A stretch of DNA of 32,443 bases from NCBI GenBank assembly GCA_001779315.1, contig MFJU01000026.1, positions 23,687 to 56,129 on the forward strand, in the 5' to 3' direction. This document shows, piece after piece, positions 500-9,776 of the stretch. The notes beneath the pieces were generated by a model that saw nothing but the letters and a program-made list of their open reading frames with translations, did no database searches and was not told the DNA's origin. Origin of the DNA: Candidatus Gottesmanbacteria bacterium RIFCSPLOWO2_01_FULL_42_22. GTDB lineage: Bacteria > Patescibacteriota > Microgenomatia > 2-02-FULL-39-11. Position 1 is the first letter of the stretch. Every line of letters starts with the position of its first letter. The position numbers and the translations under genes are program-made.

Positions 500-1162
500 T
501 TATAGAATTTTAATCTCACCTCTAGACATAGTTTGCCAAGGATAATCTGAAAATTTTTCAGAACATACTAGAGTTAAATCATCTTTCTGAAAATACTGCA
601 AACTAAAATAACTTGGATGAAGTGAATATTCGCATAATATATAAAAATTATTACTCGATATCAGTCCAACATTCATCCCTTCAACAAGTTTTGAATTAGT
701 AAGCATTGTTTGATCAAGATTTTTAAGGGAATCTCTTTCATTTTTGGCTTTAGTTTCTTCAATTAAAAATGAAAACATTTTTTGCGCTCCTATTTTGCCA
801 TTTAAGACCTTTGGGATTTTAACACCGCGGATCATTCCGTTAAAAACAAAACATAAATTATTGTTTATATAAGGCTGATTAAATTCCAGGTTATTTTTAT
901 GTTGTGGGAATCCTGCGCTTCTGGCATGAACAGCAAAAATATTTGTTTGCGGAAAAGATGAAAATAGATCCTGATCCTCCCAAATTGGCGATAATGATTT
1001 ATGTAATTTCCATGAATTGTGCTCTTGCCAGGCAACACCCCAGCCGTCACCTTGCCAGTCACCGTCAGGCGCATGACTTTTTTGGCACATCAAGGCAAAT
1101 TCTTTAAGTAATTTTTCAGGTTTAACTATCTCTTTTGATTTAACTAACAAAAATCGGCACAT
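500..1162 (-). CDS. Class-II glutamine-amidotransferase-like Ntn hydrolase, last gene of the lysine operon
   Basis: This 220-residue protein has the fold signatures of YafJ-type class-II amidotransferases. Cys2 after the initiator Met would be the N-terminal nucleophile. DGWGVAW lies at 39-45, HAR at 79-81 (the arginine that binds the substrate alpha-carboxylate in GlmS), NQPY at 95-98, and Asn108-Gly109 forms the oxyanion hole. The canonical GxTDSE motif, whose Asp binds the alpha-amino group of free glutamine, reads GKIGAQ at 122-127, so that Asp is a Gly. The gene starts 3 nt after lysJ and holds the place where the lysine-releasing hydrolase LysK would be expected. Inference: it may cleave the gamma-glutamyl amide joining lysine to the LysW C-terminal Glu. 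An ordinary amidotransferase or another amidase activity remains possible. There is no synthase domain and no Shine-Dalgarno, so translational coupling to lysJ is likely. Confidence 0.85.
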   Translation of the reverse strand: MCRFLLVKSKEIVKPEKLLKEFALMCQKSHAPDGDWQGDGWGVAWQEHNSWKLHKSLSPIWEDQDLFSSFPQTNIFAVHARSAGFPQHKNNLEFNQPYINNNLCFVFNGMIRGVKIPKVLNGKIGAQKMFSFLIEETKAKNERDSLKNLDQTMLTNSKLVEGMNVGLISSNNFYILCEYSLHPSYFSLQYFQKDDLTLVCSEKFSDYPWQTMSRGEIKIL

Positions 1163-1165
1163 AAA

Positions 1166-2323
1166 TCAGGATAATATCTTTTTCAGGGTTGTGACAGCTC
1201 TTTTTAATTCATTTTTAGTAATAATTAATGGGGGCAGAAAACGGACGATATTAGATCCTGCCGGTATTGCGATAATTTTTTCTTGCTGTAAGGCTTTAAG
1301 GATCGATGTGGCATTATCTTTTAATTCCATTCCTATCATTAATCCTAATCCTCTAACACCAATTATTTTAGGATTATTAATCGACTTTAACTGATCTAAA
1401 AAATATTTACCCATCTTTTTAGCTTCAGCGAATAACTTACCATTATCTAATTCCTTTAAAACTGCCAATACTCCAGCACAGGCTAAAGGATTTCCTCCAA
1501 AAGTGGATGTATGGATATGCACCGGAATTTTATTCGATATTTCTTCCGTTACTAAGGTTACTCCGATAGGGATTCCTCCAGCTAATCCTTTACCTAAACA
1601 AAGAATATCCGGTTTAAGTCCAAACTGTTCACAAGCTAAAAAAGAACCGGTTCTGCCGACACCTGTTTGTATTTCATCGACAATAAGCAATATATTTTGT
1701 TTATCACAAATATCTTGAAGTTCTGAATAAAACTCATGAGGAGCAACATAGATTCCGCCTTCACCCTGAACCGGTTCAATTATGATAGCCCCAGTATTTT
1801 GAGTTATTTGTGATTTTAACTCCTCAATATTACCAAAATTTACATGAGTAAAATTCCAGAGAAGAGGCAAAAATGGATTCCTATACTTATCTCCTGCTGT
1901 TGCGGATAGAGCTCCAAGAGTCTTACCATGATAAGAGTTTTTCATTGCAATAAAATGTGATTTTCCGGTTGCAACTTTAGCAAATTTCAAAGCTGCTTCC
2001 GTACTTTCGGCTCCGGAGTTAGAAAAAAATATTTTCGATAGTTTTCCGCCTGTCACTTCTAATAATTTTTCTGCGGCTTGAGATCTAACCGTGCTGTTAA
2101 ATGAACCATGAAGATTGACTAATTTATCCAATTGTTGATGCAAGGCTTTTGTAATCGCTGGATGATTATAACCAAATATATTGACTCCATAATTTGAACC
2201 CAGGTCAAGATATTTTTCTCCATTTTGATCAAAAAGATATACTCCATCGCCCTTGATAAAAGTAACCCCCCTATTCGGATAAGAGGCAACAAAAACGTTT
2301 TTTGAGGTATTTGCAGTGTTCAT
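1166..2323 (-). CDS. lysJ: [LysW]-aminoadipate semialdehyde aminotransferase LysJ
   Basis: This is a class-III PLP-dependent aminotransferase of 385 residues, the usual length. It would transfer an amino group to the semialdehyde carried on LysW to give LysW-bound lysine, the penultimate step of the pathway. Visible marks are SNSGAEST (101-108) for phosphate and cofactor binding, YHGKTLGALSAT (131-142), the VDEIQTGVGRTG segment with Asp216, and the Schiff-base lysine Lys245 in LGKGLAGG. Family members also act as acetylornithine aminotransferase (ArgD). The LysW, X, Y and Z neighbours assign it to lysine here, although dual use for arginine cannot be excluded. It begins 1 nt after the lysZ stop. 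Confidence 0.9.
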   Translation of the reverse strand: MNTANTSKNVFVASYPNRGVTFIKGDGVYLFDQNGEKYLDLGSNYGVNIFGYNHPAITKALHQQLDKLVNLHGSFNSTVRSQAAEKLLEVTGGKLSKIFFSNSGAESTEAALKFAKVATGKSHFIAMKNSYHGKTLGALSATAGDKYRNPFLPLLWNFTHVNFGNIEELKSQITQNTGAIIIEPVQGEGGIYVAPHEFYSELQDICDKQNILLIVDEIQTGVGRTGSFLACEQFGLKPDILCLGKGLAGGIPIGVTLVTEEISNKIPVHIHTSTFGGNPLACAGVLAVLKELDNGKLFAEAKKMGKYFLDQLKSINNPKIIGVRGLGLMIGMELKDNATSILKALQQEKIIAIPAGSNIVRFLPPLIITKNELKRAVTTLKKILS

Positions 2324-2324
2324 A

Positions 2325-3119
2325 TTAATTAATTGTAGTTCCTTTCCCTTTCATTGCTTGCGAGACAGGATTTTTAATTCTGCCGTCTCCAAAATAAATA
2401 TTTGTAACACCAGCATTAATTGCTTCTGTAACTCCCAATAATTTTTTCTTCATTCTTCCTTCGGATTTCTCTAGAAATTTATCAATATCTTCAATGTCAA
2501 TATGCGATACTTTGGATGATGGATCATCAAGTTTTTCCATAAATCCCGGAGCTTCGAAAAGAATTACTAGAGTTCTTACTTTAAGATCTCGAGCCATAAC
2601 AGCTAAAGCCCGGTCATTGTCAACATTAATAAGTTCTCCAGAATCGGTTATTGCTGGAATAGTTATTACGGGAGTGAAACCTCCGCGTGTGAGTATGCTT
2701 ATTAATTTAGTATTTACAGATTCCACTTTTCCAGTTAAAGAATCCGTTATCAGTTTTGTTTTTGATCCGACTTTTGCCAAAATCGCATCTTTTTTTTTGC
2801 CTAACCATAACTTACCATCGGCACCGCTTAAACCTACTGCATTGATTCCGTGTTTCTGAAGGCAGGAAACAATTTTTTTATTTATTAATCCGCTATAAAC
2901 CATCGTTAATAATTCCATTGTTTGGTTATCGGTATATCTGCTTGTATGACCTGAAGGAGACTGAATAATTTTTTCAGATAACCCAAACTTTTGGGATATT
3001 TCTTTGAAGGCGGCATTTGCTCCATGGACAATTATTGTCTGTTCATTCAAAGTGGCAATATCCTGGGCTATATAATTCCAGTTTATATATTTACCTCCAC
3101 CTGCTTTAATTATGATCAT
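2325..3119 (-). CDS. lysZ: [LysW]-aminoadipate 6-kinase LysZ
   Basis: This amino-acid kinase-fold protein of 264 residues is related to N-acetylglutamate kinase (ArgB). It would phosphorylate the side-chain carboxylate of alpha-aminoadipate attached to LysW. The start MIIIKAGGGKYIN carries the KxGGG nucleotide-binding motif, and VHGANAAF follows at about residues 32-39 in the substrate-loop position. Further on, GLSGADG and the NVDNDRALAVMA segment match the family core. The start overlaps the 3' end of the homoisocitrate dehydrogenase gene by 14 nt, which indicates translational coupling. LysZ and ArgB cannot be separated by sequence reading alone; the complete LysW operon decides the call. 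Confidence 0.88.
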   Translation of the reverse strand: MIIIKAGGGKYINWNYIAQDIATLNEQTIIVHGANAAFKEISQKFGLSEKIIQSPSGHTSRYTDNQTMELLTMVYSGLINKKIVSCLQKHGINAVGLSGADGKLWLGKKKDAILAKVGSKTKLITDSLTGKVESVNTKLISILTRGGFTPVITIPAITDSGELINVDNDRALAVMARDLKVRTLVILFEAPGFMEKLDDPSSKVSHIDIEDIDKFLEKSEGRMKKKLLGVTEAINAGVTNIYFGDGRIKNPVSQAMKGKGTTIN

Positions 3120-4116
3120 AGATCTTTTTATAGTTTATAATAACTTCTCTTGTCACTTCCGATGTTTTCGCATTCCCTCCAAGATCGAATGTAACACAAT
3201 TATTTTTTATGGTCTGAATAATTGCCTTTTTTAGACTCAATGCTTTTTTAAATTCGCCCAAATATTCAAGCATTAAACAAGCGGCAAAAAAAGCAGCAAC
3301 CGGATTGATTACATTTTTCCCCTGATATTTTGGAGCTGAACCGTGCACTGGTTCAAATAGTGCGTGAGACTCACCTATATTCGCAGAAGCAGCAACCCCT
3401 AATCCTCCAATAAGGGCTGCGGCTTCATCAGACAGAATATCTCCAAACATATTTGTTGTAACAATGATATCGAAGATATCTGGTTTTTTCACAAGATTTA
3501 ACGCACAAGAATCAACTAACATATAATCCATCTCAATTTCAGGAAATTCACTGTGCACTTCCTCTGCAATTTTAAGAAATAAACCGTCTGTCAATCGTAA
3601 AATATTTGCTTTGTGCACAACAGTAACTTTTTTTCTATTTTGTTTTATGGCTAATTCAAATGCAAATCTTATGATTTTTTCGCTTGCCTTTTTGGTAATA
3701 ATTCTTGTGGCTTCTGCTCCGATTTTTGTTTTTCTTTCCTTACCTGCATATAAATCTTCAGTATTTTCGCGAACAATGACAAAATCTATATTTTGCCTGC
3801 TAGATTTTAATGGCAACGAGTAGAAAGGCCTAACATTTGCATAAAGATCCAATATTTTTCTCAATCTAACAATCGGGCTGAAGTAATTTTCAATGATTGG
3901 CGGTGTCGTTACAGCTCCAAAAAGTATGGCGTCAGATTTTTCGCATTTTTTAACCGTATCTTCCGGGAGAGAAGATCCATTATCCAAATAGCACTGATAA
4001 CCCGCATAGGCTTCACTTATATTAAATTTAAGACTGGTTCCTTCTAAAAGTAATAAGGTTTCCGAAATAACTTCAGGACCTACCCCGTCACCCCTGATAA
4101 CACATAGAGAATACAT
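3106..4116 (-). CDS. Homoisocitrate dehydrogenase (isocitrate/isopropylmalate dehydrogenase family)
   Basis: This 336-residue beta-decarboxylating dehydrogenase should oxidise homoisocitrate to 2-oxoadipate, the keto acid that feeds aminoadipate formation. It shows the N-terminal IRGDGVGPEV nucleotide-fold motif, RLRKILDLYANVRP and VIVRENTEDLYAG for substrate binding, the VVHKANILRLTDGLF segment with the catalytic Lys, and NMFGDILSDEAA for the metal site. The C-terminal FEPVHGSAPKYQGKNVINP is the NAD-binding signature. The VRENTEDLYAG form is more like homoisocitrate or isocitrate than isopropylmalate dehydrogenases. It lies 1 nt after lysU and overlaps lysZ. Some relatives act on several 2-hydroxy acids, so a side role on isopropylmalate is possible. 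Confidence 0.87.
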   Translation of the reverse strand: MYSLCVIRGDGVGPEVISETLLLLEGTSLKFNISEAYAGYQCYLDNGSSLPEDTVKKCEKSDAILFGAVTTPPIIENYFSPIVRLRKILDLYANVRPFYSLPLKSSRQNIDFVIVRENTEDLYAGKERKTKIGAEATRIITKKASEKIIRFAFELAIKQNRKKVTVVHKANILRLTDGLFLKIAEEVHSEFPEIEMDYMLVDSCALNLVKKPDIFDIIVTTNMFGDILSDEAAALIGGLGVAASANIGESHALFEPVHGSAPKYQGKNVINPVAAFFAACLMLEYLGEFKKALSLKKAIIQTIKNNCVTFDLGGNAKTSEVTREVIINYKKIYDHN

Positions 4117-4117
4117 T

Positions 4118-4612
4118 TTAAAATCTCTCCAAATCAGACAAGTGATTTAATCCATGTTTTTGTAAATACGGAATTATTCCTCCATCTTTATTTAATCGAA
4201 GCATCATAGAAGGAATAGATATTTTTTTCTTGTTTTTTTTTGTTTTGTTTATTAAAACCTGATTTTTGATGTCAAGAATCAATACATCGTCCTTGTCAAT
4301 TCCATCTGTGTCTGCATTGACCAATAACAATCCTAAATTAAGACTATTTCTAAAAAAAATACGTGCAAAAGATTTTGCCAGGATTGCTTTTATGTGGCGA
4401 TGTTTTAGAGCTATTGCGGCTGTTTCGCGGGATGATCCGCAGCCGAAATTCTCCCCTGCAACAATAAAATCTCCTTTTTTAACATTTTTATGAAATTCAG
4501 GACGATATTCTATAAAAGCAATTGAAGCCAACTTTAAAGGGTCAGTGGTAATATTAAATCTTCCCGGTGTAATTAGGTCTGTATTGATGTTATCTCCAAA
4601 TATCCAGTTCAT
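4118..4612 (-). CDS. lysU: Homoaconitase small subunit LysU
   Basis: This 164-residue protein is the swivel-domain subunit of a two-chain aconitase-family hydro-lyase that converts homocitrate to homoisocitrate with LysT. The start MNWIFGDNINTDLITPGRF is the canonical opening of LeuD/LysU proteins, and GENFGCGSSRETAAIAL (about residues 53-69) is the conserved substrate-carboxylate loop. It overlaps lysT by 4 nt (ATGA), as expected for subunits made in equal amounts. Its size and motifs also fit isopropylmalate isomerase small subunit. The assignment to lysine rests on the surrounding operon. Confidence 0.87.
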   Translation of the reverse strand: MNWIFGDNINTDLITPGRFNITTDPLKLASIAFIEYRPEFHKNVKKGDFIVAGENFGCGSSRETAAIALKHRHIKAILAKSFARIFFRNSLNLGLLLVNADTDGIDKDDVLILDIKNQVLINKTKKNKKKISIPSMMLRLNKDGGIIPYLQKHGLNHLSDLERF

Positions 4613-5883
4613 GATAAATAATTTCTTGGGTCAGTAATAAATCCAGTAATTGCCGATGCGGCAGCTGTTGCCGGACTGGCAAGATAAATTAAGGCTTTCG
4701 GGCTACCCATTCTCCCTGTAAAATTGCGGTTACTCGTAGATACACAGACTTCATTATCTGCCAAAACACCTTGATGCCTTCCTAGACATGGTCCACAACC
4801 CGGATTAGTTACAACTGCTCCCAATTCCATAAAAAATTTAACATACCCTTTTTGCAAGGCTTGAAGATAAACTAATTTAGAAGCCGGAGTTACAATCACT
4901 CTTAATCCCGGATGTAATTTTCTGTTTTTCCAGATCGAGGCAACAATATCCAAATCCTCAATCCTGCAGTTTGTACACGATCCGATAAAGATCTGGTCTA
5001 ACTTGATTTTTTCTTTTTCAACTTCAGAAACTTTGGCTACGTTATCGATGTCAGGCGGCTTAGCAATTAACGGTTCTAAGCTAGAAATATCAAAGCGCAT
5101 TATTTTTTCATAATTAGCTTTTTTGTCACTTGCCAGATCGCTTTTATTGAATTTATATGCGCGATTATTTTTAACCAGATATTCCGATGTATTTTCATCA
5201 GGCTCGACAATGGCCGCTTTTGCACCCATCTCGGCAGACATATTTGTTAAAGTCAATCGTTCCGGAACATTAAATGAACAAACTGTTTCTCCACCATATT
5301 CCAAAACTTTGTAATTTCCGCCATCAGGGCCAATACTTTTTGCAACATTTAAAACAACGTCTTTTGAAAATACACCTTTTGGGAGCTTTCCGTTTATTTC
5401 AATTCTAACCGTTGGCGGAACCTTGAACCAACAAATTCCTGTAGCCATAGCTATTGCGGCATCTGTCGATCCCACTCCAATTGTTAATGCACCCAAACCT
5501 CCGCCTGTGGGAGAATGAGAATCTGCCCCAAGAATTAAATTACCCGGATTAATAAACCTTTCAGACATGATTTGATGACAGACCCCATCTGTAGTAACCG
5601 GAATTCCCTGTTCATCTGCGAATTTTCTGATCGCTGACTGCAAACTGGCCATTTCGGTATTAGGAGCAGGATAGGCATGATCAAATGGAATGAATATTTT
5701 TTTCTTATCCCAGACTTTTTTGGCAATCTTATAAAAAGGTTCCAGCGCCCAAGCGCAGGTCGTATCGTGGGCCATGACTAAATCCAAATTAGCTAAAACA
5801 AAATCACCGGCATATACGTTTTTTCCTGAATGAGATGAGAATATTTTTTCAGCAATAGTTTGATCTCTGTCAGCTTTTCCCAT
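4609..5883 (-). CDS. lysT: Homoaconitase large subunit LysT
   Basis: This [4Fe-4S] hydro-lyase large subunit isomerises homocitrate through homoaconitate. The chosen ATG at 5883 gives 424 residues opening MGKADRDQTIAEKIFSSHSG, which matches the family start; a longer reading frame up to 6006 would add 41 unrelated residues inside the upstream gene. Cluster ligands are visible as GSCTNCR and as the two cysteines of NPGCGPCLGRHQG. Substrate and active-site segments include MAHDTT, GADSHSPTGGGLG and the C-terminal STSNRNFTGRMG. The start overlaps the homocitrate synthase gene by 14 nt and the end overlaps lysU by 4 nt. It depends on Fe-S supply, presumably from the SUF system encoded in the same window. 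LeuC is the alternative name by similarity. Confidence 0.88.
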   Translation of the reverse strand: MGKADRDQTIAEKIFSSHSGKNVYAGDFVLANLDLVMAHDTTCAWALEPFYKIAKKVWDKKKIFIPFDHAYPAPNTEMASLQSAIRKFADEQGIPVTTDGVCHQIMSERFINPGNLILGADSHSPTGGGLGALTIGVGSTDAAIAMATGICWFKVPPTVRIEINGKLPKGVFSKDVVLNVAKSIGPDGGNYKVLEYGGETVCSFNVPERLTLTNMSAEMGAKAAIVEPDENTSEYLVKNNRAYKFNKSDLASDKKANYEKIMRFDISSLEPLIAKPPDIDNVAKVSEVEKEKIKLDQIFIGSCTNCRIEDLDIVASIWKNRKLHPGLRVIVTPASKLVYLQALQKGYVKFFMELGAVVTNPGCGPCLGRHQGVLADNEVCVSTSNRNFTGRMGSPKALIYLASPATAAASAITGFITDPRNYLS

Positions 5884-6910
5884 ATTTTTTATAAAAATCC
5901 TTAACAGTTTTTTCATCGGTTCGGCCTGAAATTTCAGAGCCATAGACCAATTGTCTGACATTTCCAAAAACTCCCGGAGAAATAGGTTCGTAAGTTGTTG
6001 GGCCAAAATTTACCAGGGCGTGAAGATGAATACCAGCTTTATGGGCAAAACCGTTTTCCCTATTGGTTAGTAGATTAAAGGGAACTTCTTTTCCAATCAT
6101 TCCGGCCAGAGTATTTTCAGCTTCAGTGACATATTGAAGATTGTATCTTTTAGAAATTTTGGGATCAAAAATATAAAGTGCCGCTAAAAATGTACTTAAT
6201 GCGGTTATTCCGCTTCTTTCTCCAATTCCTAAAAGAGTAGTGTCAACCCAGTTTGCTCCGCTTTTTATAGCACTTATAGCATTACTATTGGCTTGTCCTA
6301 AATCGTTATGAAAATGAACTTCTATATCCGTTTTAATAAATTTTCTAAGATTACTAATCTTGTTTTCAATATCCCAACTCATGGCAACACCTAAGGTATC
6401 GGCGATACCAATCCTATCAACTTTCATACTCTCGCTTAATTCATATACTTTGATAGCTTCGTTTGCATCTGCCTGAAAAAAATCTTCAACGCTGACTCTT
6501 ATTTCCAATTTTTTTTCTTTTGCTTTCAGAATATTGGCTTTTAAATTTTCCAAATACTGTGACATGTTTAAGCGCATAGCTTTTAACCTGACAGGATCAA
6601 CTGTACATAAAATATTTACTCCGTCAATCCCAGATTCAATTGCTAATGTTAAATCTTCTAGCCTATTTCTTACATGAGATATTATCGGTGGTCTTTGAGG
6701 AATTTGGACTAATTTGGTAACCGTCTTTCTTATTTCGTCAACAACAGGATTGCCAACTTCAATTCGATCAACCCCTATTTTGGATAACAATTTTAATATC
6801 AGTATTTGCTGAGGAAGACTTAAAGAAGAAAAACGATACTGCAAGCCCTCTCTTAAAGATGTGTCAATAATTCCTTTATAGTTTTTTAAAAAACTATTCA
6901 AATTATTCAT
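5870..6910 (-). CDS. Homocitrate synthase (HMGL-like/isopropylmalate synthase family)
   Basis: This 346-residue Claisen-condensing TIM-barrel enzyme is expected to join acetyl-CoA to 2-oxoglutarate, the first step of the alpha-aminoadipate route. DTSLREG at 16-22 is the family opening motif with the catalytic metal-site Asp and Arg. VEDFFQAD, the metal-binding VHFHNDLG (H-x-H) and GIGERSG follow. NGFAHKAGIHLHAL near the C-terminus corresponds to the segment that reaches the active site in homocitrate synthases. It lacks the long regulatory C-terminal domain of LeuA-type isopropylmalate synthases, so lysine feedback on this enzyme would have to act at the barrel, as in Thermus. It starts 3 nt after lysY. 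NifV-type and Thermus-type homocitrate synthases cannot be separated here. Confidence 0.87.
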   Translation of the reverse strand: MNNLNSFLKNYKGIIDTSLREGLQYRFSSLSLPQQILILKLLSKIGVDRIEVGNPVVDEIRKTVTKLVQIPQRPPIISHVRNRLEDLTLAIESGIDGVNILCTVDPVRLKAMRLNMSQYLENLKANILKAKEKKLEIRVSVEDFFQADANEAIKVYELSESMKVDRIGIADTLGVAMSWDIENKISNLRKFIKTDIEVHFHNDLGQANSNAISAIKSGANWVDTTLLGIGERSGITALSTFLAALYIFDPKISKRYNLQYVTEAENTLAGMIGKEVPFNLLTNRENGFAHKAGIHLHALVNFGPTTYEPISPGVFGNVRQLVYGSEISGRTDEKTVKDFYKKYGKS

Positions 6911-6913
6911 AAA

Positions 6914-7957
6914 TTAGATAGGGTGTAATCCCATAAACTCTAAGCTGGTTTTTTCTTCAAATCCGCACATTAAATTCATGCACTGAACGGCATTACCCGC
7001 TGTCCCTTTGGTCAAATTATCGATAGCCCCGATTATTACTAACCTTTCTGTATACTGATCGATTTCAAAGCCAACGTCACAAAAATTTGTACCCTGAAGT
7101 ATTTTTGGTTCCGGATATCTATAAAAACCACTTCTCATTTTTACTAAACGAATAAAGGGTTCGTTCCCATACTCTTTCCTGTATACCTGCCATATATCTT
7201 TTTCAGTTATTCCGGGGTTAAGGAATGTATGAACTATTACATGAAGTCCTCTTACTATTTCTATAGCTGTTGCCGTTATTGCAACTCTTGGCTTGATTTT
7301 ATTAAATGTTAACTCCTGTTCGATCTCCGCAGTATGCCTGTGGCCTGTTGGCATATACGTTCGGACAACTCCTGATCTTTCAGGATGATGCGAAGAATCA
7401 GAGCCTTTACTCCCTGCCTGAGAACTGCCCATTTTAGCATCTATAATAATTTTATTTAAATCGATTAGTTTATGTTTGATAACAGGCATTAATGACAGTA
7501 TGGAAACAATTGCTTCGCATCCCGGACCTGCTACAAACTTAGCATTTTTTATTTCCTGTCGGTGAAACTCGGGCACACCATAGACAAACTTTTTAAGAAG
7601 AGTTGGGTTTTTATGCGGAACTTTATACCATTTATTCCAGTCCGATTCCTCGCGTAATCTAAAATCTGCTCCCAAGTCAATAATGTATTTTGTCAGTTTG
7701 GCAAATCTATCCATAAAATTCATTGATACTCCGTTTGGTAAAGAAACAAACAAAACATCACAACTGCTTAAATTATTTATATCCTTGTACACAAGATCTG
7801 TTTGTCCCCTTAAATTCGGATGCTGAAGAGTTACAGATTCACCCACAAACCGCGAAGATGTAACATCCTGAATTTTAACTTTTGGATGATTTAGAAGAAG
7901 CCTTAACAGTTCTCCTCCGGCATATCCTGATGCCCCGACTATACTTACTTTAACCAT
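6914..7957 (-). CDS. lysY: [LysW]-aminoadipate semialdehyde/phosphate reductase LysY
   Basis: This 347-residue reductase is homologous to ArgC. It reduces LysW-aminoadipyl phosphate to the semialdehyde using NAD(P)H. The opening MVKVSIVGASGYAGGELLRL holds the Rossmann GxxGxxG motif, the catalytic cysteine is Cys147 in GPGCEAI, and PTGHRHTAEIEQ carries the catalytic His. I placed the start at ATG 7957: a strong AGGGGGT Shine-Dalgarno lies 9 nt upstream inside lysX, whereas a start at 7999 would add 14 residues before the Rossmann motif. The gene overlaps the lysX end by 8 nt. LysY and ArgC are close; the operon decides. Confidence 0.9.
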   Translation of the reverse strand: MVKVSIVGASGYAGGELLRLLLNHPKVKIQDVTSSRFVGESVTLQHPNLRGQTDLVYKDINNLSSCDVLFVSLPNGVSMNFMDRFAKLTKYIIDLGADFRLREESDWNKWYKVPHKNPTLLKKFVYGVPEFHRQEIKNAKFVAGPGCEAIVSILSLMPVIKHKLIDLNKIIIDAKMGSSQAGSKGSDSSHHPERSGVVRTYMPTGHRHTAEIEQELTFNKIKPRVAITATAIEIVRGLHVIVHTFLNPGITEKDIWQVYRKEYGNEPFIRLVKMRSGFYRYPEPKILQGTNFCDVGFEIDQYTERLVIIGAIDNLTKGTAGNAVQCMNLMCGFEEKTSLEFMGLHPI

Positions 7958-8813
7958 ATTTTGATACCCCCTGACAAAATTTAAGTATTTCTGCAGCAAT
8001 ATTAACCCCTGTTACTCTTTGAACGTTTTTATATTCCATCGTATGATTAACTTCATTAACCAACAAACCCGCATCAGTTTCAAAAATATCAACGCCAAGA
8101 ATTCCTCCTCCAATTGCTTTTGAAGTTTTTGAACAAATATCAGATATTTTTGTATTGATCGTGCAATTTTTAGCCTCTGCACCACGCGCGGTATTTGTAA
8201 TCCAGTGGCTTGTTTCTCTGTATATTGCACAAATTGCTATATTATCTATAACAACAACTCTAATATCCCTGCCCGGTTTTTTGACATATCTTTGAATATA
8301 AAAGACTTTTTGGATTGGAGAACCTAATACTTGCTTTTGTTCAATAATTCCTTCGAGTGCGTCATCGTCATTTACTTTTGCCAAGAGACGTCCCCATGAA
8401 CCAGAAACAGGTTTTATAACTATTGGGTAACCGCCTAATTCCTTTACAGCTTCTTTTGCCTGGCTCTCTGTAAAAACTAAAGCAAATGGTACTGTGGGAA
8501 TTTTATGTTCATGTAAAAGTAGTGAAGTTAAAAATTTATTATCACAGTTTTGAACAACTCTCGATGAATTGACAACTGGAATTCCTATTCGCTCAAAAAA
8601 AAGAGTAGCTTGAAAACCCACAGATGTTGACAAGCATCTGTCTAATATTACGTCGATATTATTATCCCATTTATCTGGATTAAATACCTGATATCTGACA
8701 TCAATTACAGAAAGTGGTATATCCTTTTTTTTTGCTTCACGGATTATTAACTTTTCATCCTCCCTTATAGTAGAATGTAATAATCCAATTTTAAATTTGG
8801 TATTTGATCCCAT
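7950..8813 (-). CDS. lysX: [LysW]-aminoadipate ligase LysX (ATP-grasp)
   Basis: This 287-residue ATP-grasp ligase attaches the alpha-amino group of alpha-aminoadipate to the gamma-carboxyl of the C-terminal glutamate of LysW. Visible marks are DRCLS at 58-62, the ATP-binding KPVSGSWGRL at 134-143, QRYVKKPGRDIRV at about 174-186, and NEVNHTMEYKN at 253-263, the metal-binding strand with the LysX-type NHTMEF/Y wording. RimK and ArgX are relatives. The position directly after lysW (1 nt apart) and the NHTME motif favour LysX. It overlaps lysY by 8 nt. Confidence 0.92.
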   Translation of the reverse strand: MGSNTKFKIGLLHSTIREDEKLIIREAKKKDIPLSVIDVRYQVFNPDKWDNNIDVILDRCLSTSVGFQATLFFERIGIPVVNSSRVVQNCDNKFLTSLLLHEHKIPTVPFALVFTESQAKEAVKELGGYPIVIKPVSGSWGRLLAKVNDDDALEGIIEQKQVLGSPIQKVFYIQRYVKKPGRDIRVVVIDNIAICAIYRETSHWITNTARGAEAKNCTINTKISDICSKTSKAIGGGILGVDIFETDAGLLVNEVNHTMEYKNVQRVTGVNIAAEILKFCQGVSKYG

Positions 8814-8814
8814 A

Positions 8815-8997
8815 TTATTCGCCCCAATCTTCTTCTATCTTGGGCGCCTCTTCAAAAGTGACATTGTTCCCAGTTTTGCCTTTAACAACAATGCGATTAT
8901 TACAGCTAGGACATTGTATAATTTCTGAAACTTCAGTATTATCTTCTACTGAAATCGTTTCTGCGCAGATTGGACAGTCAGATTTCAAATTTGACAT
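8815..8997 (-). CDS. lysW: Amino-group carrier protein LysW
   Basis: This 60-residue acidic zinc-binding carrier protects the amino group of aminoadipate during lysine synthesis. Four cysteines in two pairs, C8-P-I-C11 and C29-P-S-C32, form the zinc site. The C-terminus EEDWGE ends in the glutamate that is modified by LysX, matching the EDWGE tail of characterised LysW proteins. It is the first gene of the operon and is preceded by a clear GGAGGT Shine-Dalgarno (minus strand, around 9005-9010), unlike many leading genes in this window. The protein is a marker that separates this pathway from leucine or free-intermediate lysine pathways. Confidence 0.96.
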   Translation of the reverse strand: MSNLKSDCPICAETISVEDNTEVSEIIQCPSCNNRIVVKGKTGNNVTFEEAPKIEEDWGE

Positions 8998-9122: not shown

Positions 9123-9776
9123 ATGATATCAATATCTGATGCAGTTTTTGAGATAGTTAAGCAATCTCCATATCTAACTGAAGCCTTAAGTGACCAAATC
9201 GTAAATTTATCTTCACTCGCCCGCAAAATTCACAGTCAAGTTGAGGATAAAGTTAAAAAAGATATAAATGATGGAGCAATAATTGCCGCACTTAAACGAA
9301 TTAGTTCTAAACTTAAAAATAAAATTAAAAAAGTTAAAATCCTTAATAATTTGAGTGGTATGACGGTCAGATCGAATATCACAGAATATACATATGTAAA
9401 TACAGAAACTTTGCTTAAAAAAGTACAAGCATTAATTTTAAATATTGGAAGTAAAAGAGAAATTTTTTTGAATCTATCTCAAGGGGTAACCGAATCAACA
9501 ATAATTGCTAGCGGAAATATTGAAAAAGAAATTCAACAGGCATTTAGAAACGAAACTTTAACAGTAAAATTGGAAAATTTATCGTCGATTTCAATAAAAC
9601 TACCGCAAGATACCGTCGATAATCCCGGGGCTTATTATTCCATATTAAAATTGTTCGCGCTTGAAGGAATTAATATGGTGGAAATGATTTCGACCTTTAC
9701 AGAAGTTAGTTTGATTTTTCGGACAAATGATATAGATCGCGCTTTTTCTGTCTTAACAAAAGCCACGATGGAGTAA
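9123..9776 (+). CDS. ACT-domain protein with a helix-turn-helix-like N-terminus; candidate lysine-responsive regulator
   Basis: The 217-residue protein has two recognisable parts. Residues 1 to about 70 are helical and include LSSLARKIH...DGAIIAALKRI, which reads like a small DNA-binding helix-turn-helix but is not a family I can name. The C-terminal part (about 160-215) resembles the ACT repeat of aspartate kinases: DNPGAYYSILKLFALEGINMVEMISTFTEVSLIF, with the PG-x-Y and GINMVEM signatures. No kinase domain is present. ACT repeats of this type bind lysine or threonine in aspartokinases. The gene is divergent from lysW and shares its control region, so a role as a lysine-sensing repressor is a reasonable inference. 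It has no Shine-Dalgarno, and the -10 box ends 7 nt before the ATG, suggesting a leaderless message. Confidence 0.7.
   Translation: MISISDAVFEIVKQSPYLTEALSDQIVNLSSLARKIHSQVEDKVKKDINDGAIIAALKRISSKLKNKIKKVKILNNLSGMTVRSNITEYTYVNTETLLKKVQALILNIGSKREIFLNLSQGVTESTIIASGNIEKEIQQAFRNETLTVKLENLSSISIKLPQDTVDNPGAYYSILKLFALEGINMVEMISTFTEVSLIFRTNDIDRAFSVLTKATME

Follow-up and report, generated by a model that had tools for sequence, protein, structure and literature searches.

The window, by which we mean the whole 32,443-nucleotide stretch analysed here, holds a tight LysW operon on its reverse strand (500-8997) with the gene order LysW-X-Y-S-T-U-HICDH-Z-J-NTN, NTN being our name for the putative LysW-gamma-lysine hydrolase encoded last. 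The first gene (8815-8997) encodes the LysW carrier, which has the zinc-ribbon cysteines and a C-terminal EDWGE (EEDWGE in full), scores above the cut-off for the Pfam LysW domain and matches the NCBIfam LysW models below their cut-offs. It is followed by the ATP-grasp ligase LysX (7950-8813; TIGR02144, 310.7 bits, cut-off 275.6), whose signature, WITNTARG, is of the AAA type, an Asn-Thr within the LysX motif having been reported for AAA-specific LysX (PMC10433800), and by the ArgC-type reductase LysY (6914-7999, true start probably near 7955; TIGR01850, 389.5 bits). Then come a LysS of the homocitrate synthase type (5870-6910; TIGR02146, 255 bits, below its cut-off of 413), the large and small homoaconitase subunits LysT (4609-6006, a mechanically assigned start, with the true one probably near 5860; TIGR02086, 533 bits, above cut-off) and LysU (4118-4612; TIGR02087, above cut-off), and a protein of the homoisocitrate dehydrogenase type (HICDH, 3106-4116; PF00180, NF040619/TIGR02088). 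The operon closes with the [LysW]-aminoadipate kinase LysZ (2325-3119; NF010659, 279.9 bits, cut-off 223), the aminotransferase LysJ, which converts LysW-aminoadipate semialdehyde to LysW-lysine (1166-2323; TIGR00707, 416.6 bits, above cut-off), and, 3 bp after the lysJ stop, NTN itself (500-1162), a 220-residue protein with an ATG start.

The first-pass annotation had described this operon as lacking LysK while providing every step from homocitrate to LysW-bound lysine. The former statement stands, as no LysK is found among the operon genes; the latter does not, as LysN, which converts 2-oxoadipate to alpha-aminoadipate, is not among the operon's open reading frames, and this step may be performed by a general aminotransferase encoded elsewhere in the genome. 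Adjoining lysW and divergent from it is a 217-residue ACT-domain regulator-like gene (9123-9776, forward strand) that is kept in most relatives and is likely to encode a lysine-sensing regulator; most LysW operons of the NTN type have it at this position, as do two loci outside CPR (L046 and L052). The window gave no match to Rfam and thus contains no known lysine riboswitch.

Fold and active site of the terminal hydrolase

Profile libraries leave NTN below their cut-offs. The match to Pfam GATase_4 (PF13230) is weak, at 19.1 bits with a gathering cut-off of 23, and a relative of NTN in another genome (G053) passes the same model with 41.8 bits; the NCBIfam EgtC model TIGR03442 aligns over residues 1-212 with an E-value of 8e-11, scoring 41.7 bits against a cut-off of 218.7. 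The AlphaFold model of NTN is confident (pLDDT 94, pTM 0.92). Among PDB entries, sequence-based matches are weak and fold-based matches are clear, with EgtC (4zfj-4zfl) the best of the latter (E about 1e-10, TM 0.70-0.78), followed by the structural-genomics class-II amidotransferases 1te5 and 3mdn, GlmS and PurF. The resemblance of the model to EgtC, other class-II amidotransferases and GlmS means that the Ntn fold assignment holds, in line with the class-II amidotransferase domain named in the first-pass annotation.

The active-site residues listed there are likewise all as described. NTN begins MCRFLL, such that removal of the initiator methionine would leave an N-terminal cysteine, and its motifs are MCR (Cys2), HAR (Arg81), FNG (Asn108-Gly109) and G122-K-I-G-A-Q127, the last being a GxIGxQK in place of the usual GxTDSE. 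An alignment of 23 NTN relatives shows no variation at Cys2, Arg3, Arg81, Asn108, Gly109 or Lys128, and all 23 have glycine at the position of the GxTDSE aspartate (consensus G-x-I-G-[AST]-[QE]-K). The pattern first remarked in this one protein, with the Asp lost but Cys, Arg and Asn-Gly kept, is thus shared by the whole LysW-linked family. It is not seen in a canonical paralogue of the same class (in genome G603), which has GETDSE at this position; taken together, these observations make the loss characteristic of the family rather than peculiar to the window.

Why would an amidotransferase-like enzyme discard this residue? In GlmS, an arginine binds the alpha-carboxylate of glutamine and an aspartate binds its alpha-amino group. 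In LysW-gamma-lysine, the alpha-carboxylate of the terminal glutamate is free and its alpha-nitrogen is in a peptide bond; if the residues have kept their roles, the Asp may be gone from NTN because there is no free amino group for it to bind. The same residue weighs against the idea that NTN is a plain glutaminase, or an ammonia donor to a partner enzyme in the operon. Although the class-II amidotransferase fold would suit such a function, all 23 relatives lack the Asp needed to bind free glutamine, unlike the TDSE-bearing paralogue, and no synthetase domain is fused or adjacent to NTN. Additionally, we know of no enzyme of the LysW lysine pathway that uses ammonia; LysJ takes its amino group from an amino donor. 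With the Asp lost and no ammonia-using partner, we reject this reading as extremely improbable.

Distribution of NTN, LysX and M20 enzymes

The enzyme known to release lysine from LysW, LysK, is an M20 metallopeptidase (NF003367/TIGR01902), and a search of the whole window genome (1.42 Mb, 93% complete) returned no match to the M20 family, whereas all 14 control genomes contain one. In other words, there is no M20 peptidase and hence no LysK in the window genome, be it in the operon or away from it, in agreement with the first-pass proposal that NTN takes the place of a missing LysK. Nor is the window genome alone in this respect: nine of the 21 LysX-containing genomes of the class, some of them 93-98% complete, are without any M20 enzyme (G000, G001, G003, G011, G515, G613, G631, G680 and G682). 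The other 12 keep some M20 enzyme, which in G609 lies beside lysW, and this counts against the replacement of LysK by NTN. However, the LysK-sized M20s scanned from LysX genomes, with those of at least 450 residues set aside, reach no more than 99 bits with TIGR01902, the LysK/lysine-deacetylase subfamily model, for which the cut-off is 163 and the Deinococcus LysK reaches 329; by the curated models, then, none of the scanned enzymes is a LysK.

NTN, by comparison, tracks LysX almost perfectly. In the family (15 genomes), NTN is present in eight genomes and LysX in seven of those eight, the eighth being a case of a cut contig. Across the 374 genomes of the class, LysX is found in 21, NTN in 23 and both in 20, a pairing with a Fisher p of about 7e-30, which ignores phylogeny and serves as a guide only. 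The apparent exceptions dissolve on inspection. The sole LysX genome of the class without NTN (G701) has a contig that ends inside lysU; and of the genomes with NTN but without LysX, one (G004) has a 6-kb cut contig carrying LysZ-LysJ-NTN, and another (G603) contributes the canonical TDSE paralogue. The last is G422, a genome that lacks LysX and whose NTN (L129, 9203-9877, reverse strand) has neither the MCR start nor Cys2; judged by its sequence, this protein, the only one of its type found in a genome without LysX, looks as a relic would be expected to look.

Seven families of the class show the pairing, as do several lineages beyond the class, most of the genomes surveyed being metagenome bins. 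Among 380 genomes of the phylum, LysX scores above cut-off in four (G000, G022, G053 and G206), and NTN is present in the same four. The two genes need not be neighbours: in G022 they lie on separate contigs and not in an operon, and two Entotheonella chromosomes carry NTN by itself, with LysX-Y-Z-J and LysW far off and no M20 gene beside them. These unlinked cases argue against mere hitch-hiking in an operon. In G022, LysX adjoins a ribosomal protein S6 (rpsF-like) gene (L135, 9399-11070), with no other LysW-pathway gene near. The first-pass annotation had recognized that a LysK gene elsewhere in the genome, together with an NTN equally frequent in genomes with LysK, would speak against its proposal, and neither was observed. 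Co-occurrence also fits an accessory role for NTN, for example in editing or in LysW maturation.

Gene order offers a further line of evidence. Scanning about 85,000 species genomes gave 28 NTN loci, of which 25 have LysJ directly upstream of NTN. LysK has this same slot in Deinococcus, where a plasmid cluster carries an M20 enzyme annotated as [LysW]-lysine hydrolase directly after lysJ. All nine plasmid LysW clusters compared (from Deinococcus, Streptomyces and Bacillota) have an M20 enzyme and none has NTN, and NTN clusters lack M20 with the sole exception of that in G609, so the inverse presence expected of two alternative enzymes was found; the associated Fisher p of 6e-8 ignores shared ancestry and is again a guide only, and most of the nine plasmid clusters look like secondary-metabolite clusters, leaving just one plain lysine operon among them. 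The LysW-carrier cluster of a Staphylococcus epidermidis plasmid (L163, 7995-16162) comprises LysW, a RimK-type ligase, ArgC, M20 and a transketolase pair and is apparently an amino-group-carrier product cluster; Pseudalkalibacillus (L164) and Streptomyces camelliae (L166) have similar clusters.

Could NTN instead be an editing hydrolase that clears misloaded or stalled LysW conjugates, with a generic M20 or other peptidase responsible for normal release? The M20 enzymes kept by some LysX genomes, one of which adjoins lysW (in G609), would be in keeping with this idea. It is nonetheless very improbable in light of the nine M20-free LysX genomes described above, and of the fact that NTN occupies the LysK slot after LysJ and was not seen to be absent from any contig long enough to include that slot. 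At the G609 locus (L142, 3731-5043), beside the LysW operon, the M20 enzyme is accompanied by another LysW-like gene, convergent, whose product stops at EED and lacks the WGE tail.

Proposed release of lysine from LysW

Of 32 such genomes, 31, with the window genome among them, have no dapA above cut-off, which leaves the LysW route as the only visible route of lysine synthesis there. LysW must be recycled, and no conserved operon gene other than NTN could do so. From gene order, co-occurrence, the absence of LysK, the residues and the fold, we propose that NTN is a LysW-gamma-lysine hydrolase that replaces the unrelated LysK, a reading to which we assign a probability of roughly 0.8. After removal of Met1, Cys2 would serve as the N-terminal nucleophile and attack the gamma-carbonyl of the C-terminal glutamate of LysW, with Asn108-Gly109 forming the oxyanion hole and Arg81 holding the free alpha-carboxylate of that glutamate. 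The glycine at the former Asp position would give room to the LysW tail. Lysine would then leave, and water would free LysW for a new cycle.

A further finding counts against this reading. Short LysW-X-Y-Z-J-NTN operons without LysS, LysT, LysU or HICDH occur at several loci (among them L029, L031-L034, L040, L142 and L145), and no homoaconitase above cut-off was found elsewhere in those short-operon genomes that were searched. With many NTN operons lacking the alpha-aminoadipate genes in this way, the substrate bound to LysW in these genomes is uncertain. A role in arginine or ornithine synthesis is not favoured for the short operons, as the AAA-type Asn-Thr signature is present in LysX at all NTN loci with a readable stretch.

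The LysW tails raise the question of whether NTN has a second substrate. Of the approximately 31 LysW proteins encoded in NTN genomes, four have a C-terminal glutamine, as EDWGQ or DWGQ with the stop directly after (those of L027, L032 and G609 (L142), and the two-domain LysW of G053 (L133)). The last is a tandem protein ending DWGQ (L133, 7826-8179, reverse strand), whose cluster also holds three LysX copies and NTN. LysX requires a gamma-carboxylate on LysW, so a Gln-tailed LysW should first be deamidated. This requirement lends some appeal to the notion that NTN is a maturation enzyme that deamidates a Gln-tailed LysW, giving a Glu-tailed form for loading by LysX, while some other peptidase releases lysine; the chemistry would be an ordinary glutaminase reaction on a peptide-bound Gln. 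We regard this notion as very improbable because about 27 of the 31 LysW proteins that accompany NTN already end in Glu, such that a pure deamidase would be useless there, and because lysine release in M20-free genomes would be left without explanation. The tails cannot carry a statistical argument either: C-terminal Gln is found in none of 12 M20-type LysW proteins, but with p 0.31 this difference lacks significance, and under the NCBIfam archaeal LysW model Gln and Glu tails score alike, with no penalty for Gln, which implies that Gln tails may occur outside NTN genomes too.

The LysW-gamma-lysine hydrolase that we favour could accommodate these tails, since a Gln tail is an amide with ammonia in the place of lysine and the NTN active site could deamidate it as well. 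By analogy, NTN might be a two-purpose gamma-amide hydrolase of LysW that turns a Gln tail into a loadable Glu and also releases lysine, a tentative extension that goes beyond the first-pass annotation and that we consider possible but would not bet on. Its counterpart would be Dop, which both deamidates Pup and depupylates, Pup having a Gln tail or a Glu tail depending on the species (PMC3511204). The parallel is one of function, since the target of Dop is likewise the gamma-carbonyl of a C-terminal Gln/Glu on a small carrier protein (PMC3511204); its fold, however, is glutamine-synthetase-like and unrelated to that of NTN, and it releases the lysine side chains of proteins, not free lysine.

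Other known systems share either the reaction or the fold. LysK performs the reaction proposed for NTN, in which the gamma-glutamyl amide that joins lysine to LysW is hydrolysed, but LysK is a metalloenzyme without homology to NTN, which has the EgtC/GlmS Ntn fold and an N-terminal Cys nucleophile. EgtC, from ergothioneine synthesis, has an N-terminal Cys and cuts a gamma-glutamyl amide; its identity to NTN is just 11-14%, and it acts on a free gamma-glutamyl group, whereas the genes around NTN are LysW genes, not ergothioneine genes. Dug3, also of the class-II amidotransferase type, forms with Dug2 a complex that cuts the gamma-glutamyl bond of glutathione (PMC6508711), a similar cleavage, but on glutathione and with no link to LysW. 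In the open-access literature searched, we found nothing that links LysW to an Ntn hydrolase or amidotransferase.

If NTN does release lysine, one known step of a lysine pathway has two unrelated enzymes to perform it, and these genomes are wrongly called incomplete when annotation relies on homology to LysK. A function would be assigned to a family that profile libraries leave below their cut-offs, and an amidotransferase fold would have been redirected, with the loss of one Asp, from free glutamine towards the C-terminus of a protein. Should the two-purpose reading also be true, amino-group carrier proteins would have a second release mechanism that evolved independently of the first. In this group of tiny uncultured bacteria, the proposed enzyme activity would be a new one and would fill a gap in the biosynthetic pathway.
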